Part shown: piece after piece, positions 16,171-22,602 of the stretch
Numbering within the stretch: the first letter of the stretch is position 1
Layout: each line of letters starts with the position of its first letter
Source: a virus
Length of the DNA stretch: 26,678 bases
Virus record (IMG/VR): IMGVR_UViG_3300032182_000174
Coordinates: 1-26,678 of that record
Strand: one strand, 5' to 3'
Notes under the pieces: generated by a model
Database searches by the model: none
What the model saw: the letters and a program-made list of their open reading frames with translations, nothing else
What the model was told of the DNA's origin: nothing
Program-made: the position numbers and the translations under genes

Positions 16171-17469
16171 TTACAGACCCAGGCCGGGCAGCGGAACTTG
16201 CGCCGGCTGCTGGATCGTCTCCTCGCCGGGCTCAGGCTTGCGGAATCCGGTCTGCTCGAGCACGTCCTCGAGCGAGAGCTCGACGCCCATGCCGGCGAGC
16301 ACCTGCGCGACCGCGGCGCGCTCCTGCGGGTCCTCGCGCTTCTCCTGCGTGATGTTGAAGCGCGGCTTCTCGTTCGCGATGCCGAGCTCCTGCAGGTTGG
16401 CGTGATTCTTCCACCAGATGCAGCCCAGCAGGTCGTCGGTGAGCGTGTCCTCGAGCGTCTCGCGGTCGTATTGGATCAGCGCCTCGGTGCTGTTCTCCTG
16501 GATCTGCGCGAGCGCGTAGCTGCCGCCCTCGTTGGCCGAGGTCGTAAGGTTGGCCCCCATGATCAGCGTGTAGATCGTCGACCGCAACTCGTCGCGGATG
16601 GTGTTCATCAGCTGCCAGCCCTCGCCGCTGACGCTGACGCTCTCGACCGTGTCGCTGCTGTCGTAGACGAGCACGTGCCGGCTGCGCAGATCCTCAAGCA
16701 CGTCGCGCCACTGGTTGATGAGCTCCGTGTTCGGCAGGCCGGTCTCGGCGTCGCGCGCGCCGTCGACCTTGGCCGTGAGGATGCCTTGCGCGAACCGCTC
16801 GACCGCCTGCAGGCTCTCTTGGAAGACCTGCGTCTTCGCATACCACCACCAGCCGAGCGCCTCGCGCAGGCCGCGGCCGTGGCCGAGCGTGCCCTCGTCG
16901 TCCTGGTAGACGTGCCGGATCGTGTGCGCGGCGTCCTCGACGCTCTGCGTGTCCCACTGTTGGCCGTAGACGTCCCACCGTTCCCAGTTGGCCGTCAGCG
17001 TGTCGCCGTGCTGGGGCACGATGCGGAAGAGCCGCTTGTCGTGGTCCTCAATGCGCATCGGGCACCACCAGCGCCGCGGCTTGCCGTCGCCGATCGTCAG
17101 CGTGCGGACCTTGCCGTGGATCGTGCCGAACCGGGCACCGGAGAAGAACGCGCGCGCGAGGTTGAGCCGCGCCTGCGTGAAGTCCTGAATGCCGTCGAGG
17201 AGCTCGTTGGCGATGCCTACCGACAAGTCGGCGCGCGGGCTGCCGGTGACGCGCGGAATACAGTTCCACCGCTGGCCGGCGATGAGGTGCCGCCGGTAGC
17301 CGACCGCGTGCGCAATGTCGGCGTCGCGCAGCATCTTCTCCTCGAGCTCGGGCTCGCGCAGCAGCCAGAGGCTCGGATCATGGACCTGGATGCCGCTGCG
17401 GTAGGCCGTAGACAGCGCCCGGACGTAGAGGTTCTGGCTCTGGTTCTGGACTCGTAGCTCGGTGGTCAT
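16171..17469 (-). CDS. Portal protein, DUF935 / Mu gp29 type
   Basis: A 432-aa portal protein, forming the dodecameric DNA channel at the unique capsid vertex. It resembles the DUF935 family (Mu gp29). The N-terminal region has the LREPELEEKMLRDADI segment and RHLIAGQRWNC. The middle has HTIRHVYQDDEG and GRGLREALGWWWYAKTQ. The C-terminal half has the family-typical LIMGANLTTSANEGGSYAL (the tunnel-loop region) followed by a long helix ending in TLTDDLLGCIWW. The last 50 residues are acidic and Pro-rich. A GAGG ribosome-binding site lies 7 nt before the ATG. It follows the 111-aa gene after a 33-nt gap and is 2 nt from the next gene. Terminase upstream and MuF downstream confirm the context. 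Confidence 0.9.
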   Translation of the reverse strand: MTTELRVQNQSQNLYVRALSTAYRSGIQVHDPSLWLLREPELEEKMLRDADIAHAVGYRRHLIAGQRWNCIPRVTGSPRADLSVGIANELLDGIQDFTQARLNLARAFFSGARFGTIHGKVRTLTIGDGKPRRWWCPMRIEDHDKRLFRIVPQHGDTLTANWERWDVYGQQWDTQSVEDAAHTIRHVYQDDEGTLGHGRGLREALGWWWYAKTQVFQESLQAVERFAQGILTAKVDGARDAETGLPNTELINQWRDVLEDLRSRHVLVYDSSDTVESVSVSGEGWQLMNTIRDELRSTIYTLIMGANLTTSANEGGSYALAQIQENSTEALIQYDRETLEDTLTDDLLGCIWWKNHANLQELGIANEKPRFNITQEKREDPQERAAVAQVLAGMGVELSLEDVLEQTGFRKPEPGEETIQQPAQVPLPGLGL

Positions 17470-17488: not shown

Positions 17489-17504
17489 CGTAGTGTAGCA
17501 CGCT
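17489..17504 (-). promoter_or_regulatory. Promoter-like motif before the portal gene
   Basis: The minus strand reads AGCGTGCTACACTACG here. It closely matches AGCGTCTACACTGCG at 24995-25009, directly upstream of the DnaA-like gene, differing by one inserted base and one substitution. TACACT (17492-17497) would serve as -10. No good sigma70 -35 lies 17-18 nt upstream, so an extended -10 or a phage-specific factor would be needed. It occupies one of the few real gaps, 23-38 nt before the portal ATG, with GAGG 7 nt before that ATG as ribosome-binding site. Confidence 0.35.
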
Positions 17505-17838
17505 AGTCCTGCATGGATGCGCTCGTGCGGATAGCCCACTCGATGCCGGTCGTGCCGCCCCAGCCGAGCCACGCGACGTAGCCGGCGTCCTTCCACGGCT
17601 CGTCCTTGTGCTCGGCGGCGACCTCGGCGTTCTTGCGGTGCCGGTTGAATGCCGCCATGCGCTTGACGGTCTCGGCGCTGATCGGCCGGCCGCTCGCGAG
17701 CTGCCGCGCCCGGACCCAGCCGACGCGCGTCATGCCGGCAACCTCGTCGCCGTGCTCCTCGCGCCAGCGGATCACCTTCTTGGCGTTGCCCTTCGCGCCG
17801 GCGGGCGGGCGATACGTCTTTGCAAAGTAGAGCGGCAT
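17503..17838 (-). CDS. Small conserved phage protein (111 aa), function unknown
   Basis: The ATG at 17838 shares its A with the preceding TGA (TGATG). The frame is open much further upstream, but that part is antisense-like Arg/Gln-rich shadow. The 111-aa product is basic and has KVIRWREEHGDEV, then GWVRARQLASGRPISAETVKRMAAF, NRHRKN, and HKDEPWKDAGYVAWLGWGG. I recall this combination from a small domain found in many tailed phages, alone or attached to head-assembly proteins; its biochemical role is not known to me. It lies directly before the portal gene, separated by 33 nt that contain a promoter candidate. It is likely involved in head assembly or carried with it. No membrane segment. Confidence 0.7.
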   Translation of the reverse strand: MPLYFAKTYRPPAGAKGNAKKVIRWREEHGDEVAGMTRVGWVRARQLASGRPISAETVKRMAAFNRHRKNAEVAAEHKDEPWKDAGYVAWLGWGGTTGIEWAIRTSASMQD

Positions 17839-19856
17839 CAGCAGTTGGGCAGGGCCACGTAGTTCAGCTCGGCGTCGAACCGCTGGCCGATGATGATCGT
17901 GCCGCGCGCGGTCTCGTGGACGTTGTCCGTGCTGATCTCGACGTCGTCGACGTCCATCAGCCGGAACTGCTTGTCGGCCGCGGCGCGCGCGACCAGCGCC
18001 GCCCGGACCTGGAGCGCCTCGGCGTTGACAGCCGTGCCGGCATTGAGCTGCGGCTTGCGCCAGATGACCGGCGTGTCCTTGCCGCTCGTATGCGTGCCGA
18101 AGTCGCTGCGCAGGTTGCGGACAAAGATGGGCAGCTCGTTCGTGAACAGGTCGCCGCCGCCGCTGACGGCTTGGTCGTTCGTGCCCAGACTCACGAAGAA
18201 GCCCATCAGCTCGGCCTGCTTCTCGAGCGTGACGTTGATGTATTGCAGCGCGTTCTCGATGTCGGCGCGCATCTCGTCGTAGTGTTCGGTCGCGGCGTAG
18301 CTCTTCGACCAGCGCCCGCCGGTGCCGCTGCTGTAGGATGTGCCGTCGGCGACGAGCGTGCTGCTGTTGCTGCCGCGCTTGATGATGACGAATCCCGTGT
18401 CGGGGTGCCGGGCGTAGAGCTCGGCGGTGAGGCTGAACTCCGGGCCGGCCGCGTGCGGTGCCGCCGGCGCGCTGCCGCTGGTGTTGCTGTTGTCGTGCGC
18501 GTTGTATGCCTCGACGTTGCCCGTGCTGCGGTTGTATATCTTCTGAGCACTGTTGCGCACCGTGTTGGTGAGCGTCGGGCTCTCGAGCGAGCCGGTGAAC
18601 GTCTCGTCGCAGTGCGTGCCGACGGCGAGGCTGTCGCCGATAAAGACGTAGACGGGTATCGCGTTCTTGACGTTGGGCGCTGCGCCCTGCTGCCAGAGGT
18701 CGATCGTCTTGCGGATCTCCTGCGGATACTCGCGCTGGTAGACGCTCGTCGAGTAGTAGTAGCTGTCCTCGCCCTGCCATGTCGGCACCGCGGCGTCTTG
18801 GCCGCGCAGCGCGAGCTCGAGGCCGTCGAGGTTGCAGACGCGGACGTTGCTGTCGGCGAGCGCGATCGCTTGGTGGTAGCGGTTGGCGACCGCGATGCCC
18901 GCCGGCGTCTGCGTCGCCCGGATCTTGGCGTCGTGACTGAGCAAGATCACCTTGAGACTGCTGTTGTTGAAGACGCTCGCGCTGCGCAGCCACGCGATCA
19001 TCTCCTCGAGATCGTCCTCGTAGAGCAGCGCGTTCGACGGCGTGCCGCCGCTGGTGCGCCAGCTGTAGACGTCAAGGTCGGACTGGTCGATGATCGCGTA
19101 GTCCCACCGCAGCGTGTTGCCGTTCGCGAGCGCGGTCCAGGCCGCGTCCACGCGCGCCTTCTCGGTCGTGTAGGCCGTGCGCGCCGTGCCGCCGTCGTTC
19201 CATCCGCCGGTCGTCGCCGCCGCGTGCGCATACTTCCAGAGCTGGAAATACGGGCTGGCCTTGTAGGTGTTCTTCCAGAGCTGCCGGACGAGCATCTGGT
19301 CGGGAGCCGCGCCGTTGTTGTTCTGCGCGTAGCTCGCGCCGCTGCGCGTCGGCACCGCGCTCGCGAGCACTTCGGTGTAGGTGCGCCACGCGCCGACCAT
19401 GCTCACGTCCTTCCACTGGCCCTCGTTGAACCAGACGCCTGCGCCGGTTTCCGGCGTCGCGGTCCACGCGCTGACGGTGACCGTGTCCGACGTGTTGCTG
19501 ACGACGGCGATGTTCTTGTTGCGGAAGCCGAGGCCGCTGAGGTTGTTGTTGGTGACCTTGTAGCCGGCCCACTCGTCCGTAGTCCAGCCCGGGTCCGGCG
19601 TGACGGTGACGGTCGTGCTCGTCGCGCCGCTGACGACGTAGACCGTGCCGGCGTTGCCGTCGAACCAGGGGAACCAGCTCAGGCTACTCGCGGTCGGTGC
19701 GCCGTCGCTGTCGCTGTCCGGGCAGACGCGGTGCGCGTCCTTGTCGCGCAGGTGCTCGGTCTCGTAGGTGCCGGAGCTCGTGTATTCGGCGTTCGGGTTC
19801 GCGCCGCCCTGCACCATGGCGCTGCCGATGTATGCGATTGCTGGAACGTCTGCCAT
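17838..19856 (-). CDS. Tandem SGNH-hydrolase-like protein (degenerate N half, intact C half)
   Basis: A 672-aa protein with two related SGNH/GDSL folds. The C-terminal half (about 398-668) has block I FIGDSLAVG with nucleophile S409, block III SLGTND with N560, and block V DNVH with D644 and H647, a complete esterase set. The N-terminal half (about 5-385) repeats the layout: AYIGSAMVQG in block I with Ala in the serine place, AIIDQSDLD, DDLEEMIAWLRS (compare NELPIFVRNLRS), VILLSHDAKI, NVRVCNLDGLEL (compare FRLMDVDDVEI), and a Tyr-rich segment where the His should be. Residues about 66-145 are a beta-rich insert. The likely role is deacetylation or deacylation of a host surface glycan, with the inactive half binding or bracing. 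It is encoded between terminase and portal, 9 nt after the previous gene, and shares a TGATG junction with the next. Substrate unknown. Confidence 0.8.
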   Translation of the reverse strand: MADVPAIAYIGSAMVQGGANPNAEYTSSGTYETEHLRDKDAHRVCPDSDSDGAPTASSLSWFPWFDGNAGTVYVVSGATSTTVTVTPDPGWTTDEWAGYKVTNNNLSGLGFRNKNIAVVSNTSDTVTVSAWTATPETGAGVWFNEGQWKDVSMVGAWRTYTEVLASAVPTRSGASYAQNNNGAAPDQMLVRQLWKNTYKASPYFQLWKYAHAAATTGGWNDGGTARTAYTTEKARVDAAWTALANGNTLRWDYAIIDQSDLDVYSWRTSGGTPSNALLYEDDLEEMIAWLRSASVFNNSSLKVILLSHDAKIRATQTPAGIAVANRYHQAIALADSNVRVCNLDGLELALRGQDAAVPTWQGEDSYYYSTSVYQREYPQEIRKTIDLWQQGAAPNVKNAIPVYVFIGDSLAVGTHCDETFTGSLESPTLTNTVRNSAQKIYNRSTGNVEAYNAHDNSNTSGSAPAAPHAAGPEFSLTAELYARHPDTGFVIIKRGSNSSTLVADGTSYSSGTGGRWSKSYAATEHYDEMRADIENALQYINVTLEKQAELMGFFVSLGTNDQAVSGGGDLFTNELPIFVRNLRSDFGTHTSGKDTPVIWRKPQLNAGTAVNAEALQVRAALVARAAADKQFRLMDVDDVEISTDNVHETARGTIIIGQRFDAELNYVALPNC

Positions 19857-19865
19857 GGTCGTGCC

Positions 19866-20831
19866 CTAGTTGCCGATACTGTTAGGATTCTGGTTCTTGC
19901 CGCCGCCTTGGCCGACGCCGCCGCCGGGGATGTGCAGGGTGCCAGAACATCGTGCGCAGTAAGCCCCGATGACGAACGTGCCAGCCTCGACGTGCTGCGG
20001 ATCGTCCTCGAAGACTCCGGGCGCGACCTCGCGTTGCGTCTGCATCGTGTAGCCCGTGATCGAGACGGCCCAATCGCGCATATCGGACTCCCACCACGCG
20101 GCCTCACCGCAGGCGTCGGGATTCAGGCCAAACGTGAGCTCTGCGTTTTGTCTGCGCAAGGCAAACACGTCACCGTCACCGCCTAGATTGCCGCGCGGGT
20201 CGGTGAGCTCTTGGTATGTGTAGGGGTCGAAGCTACCTACCGAGAACGTCGCGCCGCTCGTCGCGTTGTTCGGATCGCTGATCGTAAAGCCCGTCGGCGC
20301 GACCGGATTGACCTTGCGCTTGCCGATGCCGTCGGCCGGCTGCGTGCGGATGACGGACCATATCTCAAAGAACCACGAGATCGCCGTCGTGCATGGGCTG
20401 CCGCCTGTGCAGTCGGGCGCGCTTGCCGTGCTGCACGATCCGTTGGCCGCTGTCTTTGTCAGCGACATCGGCAGGATGTAGACCTCAGTCGGATCGCCTG
20501 CGTCGATGTCCGGCTCGGCGTCTGGGGTAAACTTCCAGCCGTTGCGCAAGTTGTCGTAGCCCTGACCGCCTGCGTAAGACCCCTGCGGGTCCGCCTGCGT
20601 GCTAAAGATGCCGGTGCTCTCAAACGTAAGGAATGTTGATTCCCCCCTCGACACTGCATAGCCAGCCTCCGTAGTTGCTGTCATAAACTCGGAGAACACA
20701 AGAATCTGGTCGCCGGTAAACCGTCGAGCCTCATCACGCAGGTCGATCGGCGGAACCCACAGAGGCGAGGTGTCTGCGTCGTCTTTGACGGTAATGACAA
20801 CGCCGGCATGTTCGCATCCAGTGCAGCTCAT
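19866..20831 (-). CDS. Hypothetical 321-aa protein with N- and C-terminal CxxC motifs
   Basis: Unrecognised protein of 321 aa, coupled by ATGA to the small cysteine-rich gene upstream. It has CxxC at residues 3-6 (SCTGCEH) and again at 292-295 (YCARCSG), so the two ends could meet on one metal ion. The middle is Thr/Ser/Gly/Asp-rich and looks beta-structured, with further cysteines around NGSCSTASAPDC. The C-terminus is a Gly/Asn-rich tail (GGGVGQGGGKNQN). No signal peptide or transmembrane segment is visible. Its position between terminase and the SGNH protein, upstream of the portal, suggests a virion or decoration component. The first 80 or so codons use far more A/T in third position than the surrounding genes, hinting at separate origin. 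Confidence 0.65.
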   Translation of the reverse strand: MSCTGCEHAGVVITVKDDADTSPLWVPPIDLRDEARRFTGDQILVFSEFMTATTEAGYAVSRGESTFLTFESTGIFSTQADPQGSYAGGQGYDNLRNGWKFTPDAEPDIDAGDPTEVYILPMSLTKTAANGSCSTASAPDCTGGSPCTTAISWFFEIWSVIRTQPADGIGKRKVNPVAPTGFTISDPNNATSGATFSVGSFDPYTYQELTDPRGNLGGDGDVFALRRQNAELTFGLNPDACGEAAWWESDMRDWAVSITGYTMQTQREVAPGVFEDDPQHVEAGTFVIGAYCARCSGTLHIPGGGVGQGGGKNQNPNSIGN

Positions 20832-21010
20832 GCGTCAGGCTCCAGCGGGAACATGGGGAGGAACGGGTTGAAGGGCTGCCAGTCGTCGTAGTCCGGGCAG
20901 TCGCACTCGAGCACGTGGTCGCGGTGAATCATGCACCAGACGTCGGAGCCGCATCGGCAGACGACCCAGGCCGGCATGATCTCGGTGCGCTTCGGCTCGG
21001 CCTCGGTCAT
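20828..21010 (-). CDS. Cysteine-rich 60-aa mini-protein (possible zinc binder)
   Basis: Small 60-aa protein. I chose the ATG at 21010 because it gives an ATGA overlap with the terminase stop; an ATG four codons earlier also exists. Four cysteines and a histidine are arranged as CRCGSDVWCMIHRDH then CDCPDYDDW, a pattern compatible with a treble-clef or zinc-ribbon-like knuckle. The C-terminus is Pro/Phe-rich (PFNPFLPMFPLEP). No family recognised. It is coupled by ATGA to the 321-aa gene, whose product begins with another CxxC motif. A role as a structural or adaptor mini-protein of the late operon is inference. Confidence 0.6.
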   Translation of the reverse strand: MTEAEPKRTEIMPAWVVCRCGSDVWCMIHRDHVLECDCPDYDDWQPFNPFLPMFPLEPDA

Positions 21011-22602
21011 GGCATGAGCCACCTTGAGCTCGTCTGCGGTCGATCGTCCGGATGTAGGTCATGGCTAGAGCTGTTGCGCTCGGTCGACATGCTACCAAAA
21101 GGCTGCCGCGCGCCTAGCGGGTGCGCCTCCAGCCACGCCCACGCGCCGCTCGTCGCGTCGACCTCATCGCACGTCGCGGCGTCGGGGAATCCTTCCACGA
21201 TGCTTAGATAGTCGGCCGTCCATGGGCCGGAGAACAGCCGGATGCCGTCGCGCTCGTTGGGCACGCCGACGCCGGCGTCGGCCGCGTGCCAGGGTGCGCC
21301 GGTATCCGGTCCCTCGCCGCGGCGCTGGTAGCCGCGCTCTAGGCACGACGCGACCGGGTCGGCGCGGCTCGTCTTGGCCGACATGCTGCCGCCGCCGCGA
21401 GTCATCGTCCGCTGCTCGCGGTCCGTCATGCTGCTCGGCCTCGCGCCGACGACGCGGTGCCCTAGCGCCCTGAGGCGCTTCTCGAGCGCGTGAAACTGCG
21501 CCAGCCCTCCGCTGCCCCCTTCGATCTCGAGGCCCACCACGACGCCGTGGCCGTCCCCCTGCGCCGTCTGGACGATCAGGTCGTCGCGCTTGCCCGGGGT
21601 TGCCCGGAATGCCCGGCAGTGCTCGATCGCGCGCACGCCGCGGCGGTGCCGGGCCATGAGCACGCCGGCGGTCTTGGCCGCGGTGCTCTTCTCGCTCGCG
21701 GCGAGATCCCACCAGCGGATGCGCTGGCATTCCGAGCTCGGCCAGCGGTCGATCTCCGGGTCGAGGAGCGGGCCGAACCATTCCGCCCGGAAGTAGTCGC
21801 CGGGCTCGCGAGCGGACCAGTCGCCCTCGAGGAGCTGCTGCCGGACGGTCGGGTGCAGGTGCTCGAGGCCCTGCACGTAGGCGTCGCGGTCGAGGTAGGG
21901 GTTGTCCGAGATCCGGGCGGGCACATAGCGGTGCCGGGCCGGCCGATGCTCGCCGGTCTCCGGGTCGACGCCACCGATGAACTGCCGCGCGACCCAGTCG
22001 TGCCCGGGTCCGCCCGGGTTGCTCGCGGCGAGGGTCCGCAGCGGCACCTTGCTGTCGCTCGAGCGTCGGACGCGGGACAGTCCGACGTATTCGTATGGTG
22101 CGGCCGTAGGCCACTGCGTGAGCTCGTCCCAGCCCGTGAACTGATACTCAGCGCCCTGGTAGCGCAGGTGGTCGTTTGGCTTGAAGAGGTAGGCGAACGC
22201 GATCTTGCCGCCGCCGGGGAACTTGAACACCTTGTTCGTGCCGTCCCAATGCGCGCCCTTGGGTATCCACCACTCCATCGCCCGGTCGAGCAGCGCGCCG
22301 GGTTGGGTGAGGTCGGTGAACGTACGGCGGAAGAGGATGCCCGCGAACTCGGGCTCGTTCCACGCATACTGCGCGGCGGCCATGAGCAGCGCGTCGCTCT
22401 TGCCGCCGCCGGCGCTGCCGCCGTAGAGCGCCTGGAAGACGCGGTCGGTCGGCGAGCTTAGGTGCAGCCCGAGGAACACCTGCTGCGCGGGCAGCGGCCA
22501 GTGCGGAATCCACGGGTTGCCGTAGACGCGCGGGCAGAGCTGCTCGAGAGCTGCCGCGCACTGCTCGCGGCCCTGCGCCTCACGTTCCGCCGGTTGGCTC
22601 AT
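21007..22602 (-). CDS. terL: Terminase large subunit
   Basis: ATP-driven DNA packaging motor and nuclease, 531 aa. The ATPase half shows the Walker A motif GGSAGGGKS (61-69), Walker B ending in WDE (158-160) and coupling motif SNPGG (194-198). The RNase H-like nuclease half shows the first acidic residue in RWWDLAAS (D299), a second in GLEIEGGSGG (359-361) and a third region CDEVDA with D479 and D482, so both activities look intact. Compared with common relatives, about 30 extra residues (roughly 420-452, with several Gly, Arg and Trp) sit between the KTSRADPVA helix and the SGPW strand. The ATG lies 23 nt inside terS. The stop overlaps the next start as ATGA. Together with the small subunit it marks the start of the late region. 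Confidence 0.97.
   Translation of the reverse strand: MSQPAEREAQGREQCAAALEQLCPRVYGNPWIPHWPLPAQQVFLGLHLSSPTDRVFQALYGGSAGGGKSDALLMAAAQYAWNEPEFAGILFRRTFTDLTQPGALLDRAMEWWIPKGAHWDGTNKVFKFPGGGKIAFAYLFKPNDHLRYQGAEYQFTGWDELTQWPTAAPYEYVGLSRVRRSSDSKVPLRTLAASNPGGPGHDWVARQFIGGVDPETGEHRPARHRYVPARISDNPYLDRDAYVQGLEHLHPTVRQQLLEGDWSAREPGDYFRAEWFGPLLDPEIDRWPSSECQRIRWWDLAASEKSTAAKTAGVLMARHRRGVRAIEHCRAFRATPGKRDDLIVQTAQGDGHGVVVGLEIEGGSGGLAQFHALEKRLRALGHRVVGARPSSMTDREQRTMTRGGGSMSAKTSRADPVASCLERGYQRRGEGPDTGAPWHAADAGVGVPNERDGIRLFSGPWTADYLSIVEGFPDAATCDEVDATSGAWAWLEAHPLGARQPFGSMSTERNSSSHDLHPDDRPQTSSRWLMP

Follow-up and report, generated by a model that had tools for sequence, protein, structure and literature searches.

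The window, that is, the whole 26,678-nucleotide stretch of viral DNA analyzed here, carries a Mu-like head module in the order small and large terminase, cassette, 111-aa gene, Mu-type portal, and Mu F-like protein. The cassette includes the gene for a protein that is predicted to consist of two SGNH domains in tandem. The features in this part of the window are as follows:

16171..17469, minus strand: Mu-type portal (Portal_Mu, 5.8e-35)
17503..17838, minus strand: conserved gene of 111 aa that separates cassette and portal (phrog_2859), kept in the empty-slot phages
17832..21006, minus strand: cargo cassette between the terminase and portal modules, missing as a unit in L020, L022, L023, and L024
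17838..19856, minus strand: gene of the tandem SGNH protein, 672 aa, predicted dead N half followed by predicted live C half
19866..20831, minus strand: 321-aa Cys-containing cassette gene (MSCTGCE ... CARC)
20828..21010, minus strand: ~60-aa Cys-rich ORF that overlaps the stop codon of the terminase, read from the sequence
21007..22602, minus strand: large terminase (PHROG 979, 6e-72)

A scan of the portal family yielded 54 loci, in 20 of which (duplicates and truncated contigs included) the tandem gene, or a lone domain in the case of L011, is located directly upstream of the portal. In the four empty-slot relatives, whose portal protein is 95–96% identical, blastn homology extends to the terminase stop (21007) and starts again at 17831, and the slot is reduced to a 384-bp interval holding only the 111-aa gene. 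Unrelated genes, up to 7 kb, occupy the same slot in other relatives. The slot of L041 and L043 is filled by the tandem gene alone, and the upstream Cys-containing gene is therefore not obligatory; this 321-aa gene gave no match in Pfam, PHROG, or NCBIfam, and phmmer detected homologues in L011 and L025 only. No repeats that would indicate a mobile element were found at the cassette borders. The position between terminase and portal, which the earlier note had called an odd place for such a protein, is not odd for this gene because the interval is a variable cargo slot, and an SGNH tailspike-type gene is found at the same position in Klebsiella phage KP8.

Several further observations concern the slot and its surroundings. 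The ~60-aa Cys-rich ORF falls within the stretch missing from the empty-slot relatives. The slots of L033, L037, L042, L045, L046, L049, and L061 contain many unrelated genes, nearly all without a Pfam match, and that of L061 includes a DUF932 protein. L019, which is 100% identical on the portal side, starts at the cassette border (window 17833), and L004 and L005 start at window 19607 and 19592, within the beta insert of the tandem protein; these starts may reflect forks of the assembly where the sequence varies. L012 (7862–11119) encodes a fusion of the Mu-type portal with a Zeta_toxin domain (PF06414, 8e-26). A short gene of L017 (2674–3129) with a signal-like N-terminus and a match to Destabilase (i-type lysozyme, 1.5e-9) is located directly upstream of the tandem gene.

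The ORF, which is on the minus strand and encodes 672 aa, has exactly the limits given in the earlier note (17838–19856), and its parts are as follows:

18684..19856, minus strand: N half, residues 1–391, predicted SGNH fold without catalytic residues
19803..19826, minus strand: N-half block I, residues 11–18, GSAMVQGG (GDYMVQGG-like in relatives)
19386..19658, minus strand: N-half insert, an all-beta domain of residues ~67–157, from model strands
17841..18683, minus strand: C half, residues 392–672, SGNH hydrolase domain with a predicted fold nearest to SASA/CE6
18630..18632, minus strand: Ser409, predicted nucleophile, in the GDSL block I, kept in 17 of 18 family members
18177..18179, minus strand: Asn560, block III (GTND), kept in 14 of 18, lost in L011, L051, L053, and L062
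17916..17927, minus strand: Asp644-x-x-His647, block V (DNVH), Asp in 18 of 18 and His in 14 of 18

The C half is a member of the SGNH superfamily by fold and motifs. GDSL (407–410), GTND (558–561), and DNVH (644–647) of the window correspond to blocks I, III, and V, respectively, and the quartet of Ser, Asn, Asp, and His attributed to this half was located at Ser409, Asn560, Asp644, and His647. In block II, where an SGNH enzyme has the Gly of its oxyanion hole, Gly495 of the window is replaced by Ala in several relatives. Each of the six relatives tested has a match to the Pfam family SASA in its C half (E 1.8e-7 at best), and the window copy scores 19.0–19.6 bits against a gathering cut-off of 24.8. 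Residues of the C half were counted over 18 family members, and those of the N half over the 14 relatives in which this half is readable.

Structural models were built with AlphaFold2 from ten-sequence alignments for the full-length protein (mean pLDDT 57.9, pTM 0.47) and for the N half alone (mean pLDDT 60.6, pTM 0.69); pLDDT fell below 50 in the loops around the catalytic residues (409–433 and 637–658) of the full-length model. VIA-align matched residues 398–669 of the full model to the SASA/CE6-type esterases 2apj (Z 17.5, 3.4 A over 215), 1zmb (Z 17.3), and NanS (Z 15.6), and residues 2–390 to GDSL esterases, of which EstL5 gave Z 13.9. When the N-half model was used alone, 50 of 50 rows among the matches listed by VIA-align were of the SGNH, GDSL, or esterase type, with Z values up to 12.9 over residues 2..391. 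The full model also matched phage tail proteins, namely, the Pan3 tailspike (Z 16.2) and an N4 tail chain (Z 13.7), with the Vi06 tail fibre and the ViI adhesin as further structural neighbours. In the N-half model, strands at 73–78, 82–86, 100–104, 116–121, 125–128, and 140–144 form the beta insert, to which a separate short match to the phage Chi tail-tip chain 8vjh_D was assigned from the length of the match. Structure prediction of both halves, which the earlier note had set as a test of its reading, thus gave SGNH/GDSL folds for residues 1–391 and SASA/CE6-type esterase folds for 398–669, and the proposed esterase with one dead and one live SGNH domain in tandem is confirmed at the level of predicted folds and residue pattern. 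The SGNH fold of both halves is well supported but not proven because Foldseek matches for the N half were weak (best E 8.5e-3) and confidence in the models is modest.

At the sequence level, BLASTP and hhalign gave no significant match between the halves at any depth tried, and global profile alignment of the halves scored above 60 of 60 shuffles that preserved secondary-structure class, by ~3.4 SD. The strongest sequence clue to their relationship is block I, which reads G-D-[YHFT]-x-x-x-G-G after strand 1 in the N half of 8 of 14 relatives and G-D-S in the C half. The segment pairs that had been aligned by eye are located at equivalent positions in the predicted model: strand 1 (N half 3–11, C half 399–407) precedes both IGSAMVQG and IGDSLAVG, DDLEEMIAWLRS and NELPIFVRNLRS occupy an equivalent helix (273–291 and 567–586), and NVRVCNLDGLEL and FRLMDVDDVEI an equivalent strand (338–341 and 631–634). 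The window N half has no match of its own to any curated family, and a sequence search of solved structures with each half as query gave nothing useful. Sequence alone provides no proof that the halves are homologous, and the claim is borne by the fold match. The insignificant BLASTP and hhalign results, the best Foldseek E of 8.5e-3, and the pLDDT of ~60 would also be expected if the N half were another Rossmann-like domain rather than a degenerate SGNH domain, and the tandem were illusory; this reading is, however, highly improbable, given the SGNH-type chains in all 50 rows listed for the N half, the GD-x-x-x-x-G-G block I correctly placed after strand 1 in 8 of 14 relatives, and the fact that Pfam SASA touches the N half of L018 itself (E 0.013).

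As a degenerate SGNH domain, the N half combines the predicted fold with an absence of the catalytic Ser, Asn, and DxxH of the enzymes. Ala13 takes the serine position in the window and a Tyr-rich stretch lies at the expected place of His, as had been noticed from the sequence. Across the relatives, the nucleophile position is occupied by A, R, Y, G, T, H, or F and by Ser in 0 of 14, while the preceding Gly-Asp is kept in 8 of 14 (e.g., GDYMVxGG), and the 14 relatives have neither a conserved block III Asn nor a block V DxxH. An N-half enzyme with a Tyr or Thr nucleophile was considered and rejected, as the position is not conserved. The dead N half is conserved throughout these 14 relatives. 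Invariant residues are nevertheless present in this half and include G11, G17, and G18 of block I as well as W251, D262, V263, W266, Y279, R291, H308, H328, and Y368. Several of them directly follow predicted strands 3 and 4, at the expected rim of an SGNH active site, and from this placement the N half may retain a binding pocket. Pairwise dN/dS, calculated for regions with enough divergence, ranged from 0.02 to 0.54, and both halves are therefore maintained under purifying selection.

Catalytic residues have also disappeared from the C half of some relatives. In the lone C-type domain of L011, which has no N half, Asp takes the place of Ser, His that of Asn, and Ser that of His. In L051, L053, and L062, Ser is kept, Asn is replaced by Ile or Thr, and His by Asn. 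In the C-half tree, L011 groups with the window (95/92) and L051, L053, and L062 form a separate clade (100/100), so that at least two losses of catalytic residues must have occurred; some branches of this tree are long and the deeper placements are unsure. The C half of the dead clade is still constrained (dN/dS 0.085 for L053–L062). Since catalytic residues of the C half were lost at least twice, catalysis is not the sole function. A tentative extension, which we regard as possible though rather doubtful, is that the tandem is mainly an adhesin of esterase fold, in which the N half turned into a non-catalytic glycan binder at an early stage, with the C half now on the same path after independent losses of catalysis in at least two lineages, one with the lone domain and the other with the Fn3 fusion. 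If so, this phage group would display the transition from a receptor-trimming enzyme to a pure lectin.

In the fusion, found in L051 and L053, a ~1600-aa protein carries an Fn3 domain (Pfam 3e-8 and 1.5e-8, respectively) and terminates in the tandem; the PHROG match of this Fn3 is a minor tail protein. The fusion protein thereby resembles a tailspike. A beta-helix in its ~800-aa N-terminal part was read by eye, and searches of Pfam, PHROGs, NCBIfam, and PDB sequences gave none. The 5' end of L062 is open, so that a fusion would not be visible there. Where the tandem stands alone, no virion-anchoring domain was recognised in it.

Phage SGNH receptor-binding proteins offer an analogy, and together with the structural neighbours and the Fn3 fusion they suggest, as the best explanation, that the protein is probably a host-surface adhesin, presumably attached to the virion, with O-deacetylase activity. 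In the proposed mechanism, the N-terminal SGNH fold, which has lost its catalytic residues, would serve as a retained module for binding and scaffolding with an inserted beta domain, and the C-terminal Ser-Asn-Asp-His esterase would probably strip O-acetyl (or similar) esters off a surface glycan. The cargo slot that holds the gene varies among close relatives by gain, loss, and exchange, as would fit a host-range determinant. Catalytic residues are missing from the C half of at least two lineages, and, as this half is still under purifying selection, binding alone could suffice. The host-surface device postulated in the earlier note thus gains indirect backing for its adhesin role from the Fn3-bearing ~1600-aa fusion in relatives and the phage tail proteins among the structural neighbours; its glycan ligand, esterase activity, and acetyl substrate, like the virion location, are what we infer.

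That close relatives either have or lack the gene in a cargo slot whose remaining occupants resemble assorted cargo would also suit a moron-type enzyme that acts outside the virion and alters the host surface during infection or lysogeny, e.g., by removing O-acetyl groups against superinfection. Such a swappable enzyme is considered unlikely, because a signal peptide is not evident in the tandem protein sequence, the tandem of L051 and L053 ends a ~1600-aa protein whose Fn3 is related to minor tail proteins, and recurrent catalytic loss under maintained selection fits an enzyme-only role poorly. A role in lysis or entry, in which the esterase would act on O-acetylated peptidoglycan and open the way for a muramidase, would fit the lysozyme-like gene directly upstream in L017 (Destabilase, E 1.5e-9) and the peptidoglycan O-acetylesterases among the structural neighbours. 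However, neither the window nor the loci examined closely showed a lysozyme-like neighbour, SASA/CE6 esterases and phage tailspikes have the folds nearest to that of the C half, and the catalytically dead lineages do not fit, which makes this role very unlikely.

The adhesin with deacetylase activity, as the preferred reading, can be compared with characterized SGNH proteins of other phages, among whose receptor-binding proteins SGNH esterases are common. SGNH receptor-binding proteins of other phages are demonstrated esterases or deacetylases (PMC13123978; PMC9569702); likewise, G7C gp63.1, Possum gp66, and the receptor-binding proteins of Klebsiella prophages are phage proteins in which an SGNH esterase domain removes O-acetyl groups from surface polysaccharides. 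In the passages of the cited papers considered here, a single SGNH domain is described for the tail fibres and tailspikes, with no dead twin in the same chain, and their adsorption role or esterase activity has been tested experimentally, whereas that of the window protein is predicted. The KP8 protein encoded between terminase and portal has one SASA match only, in contrast to the two SGNH folds of the window protein. The tandem gave no match and no detectable homologue in the cultured-phage records searched (tblastn, five family queries), where the sole hits were those of the L053 Fn3 part to Streptomyces phages; portal relatives were likewise not found among cultured phages by tblastn, and pattern-based scans of bacterial and archaeal genomes found no tandem.

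Among solved folds, those of SASA/CE6 (2apj, 1zmb, and NanS, Z 15.6–17.5) come nearest to the C half, and its Pfam SASA match is weak. The signature of SASA/CE6 consists of a block I Gln and a block III (H)QGE motif (PMC9487903). Unlike these, the C half has GDS in block I and GTND in block III and is therefore not filed as SASA/CE6; without the signature motifs, a sialate or xylan substrate is not to be assumed. In CE20 esterases (XacXaeA and PpCE20_II), a beta domain is inserted into the SGNH domain (PMC12313940), as in the N half, but the split domain of CE20 is the live one and a second SGNH domain is not described. Ces3 of Clostridium thermocellum contains two successive SGNH (CE3) esterase domains that are 97% identical (PMC9487903), in contrast to the highly diverged halves of the window protein, one of which is dead. 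No description of a dead–live SGNH tandem in a phage was found in the literature searched, and the occurrence of intact, dead, and absent versions in close relatives would permit a direct test of glycan binding by the dead domain and of the cost of losing catalysis.
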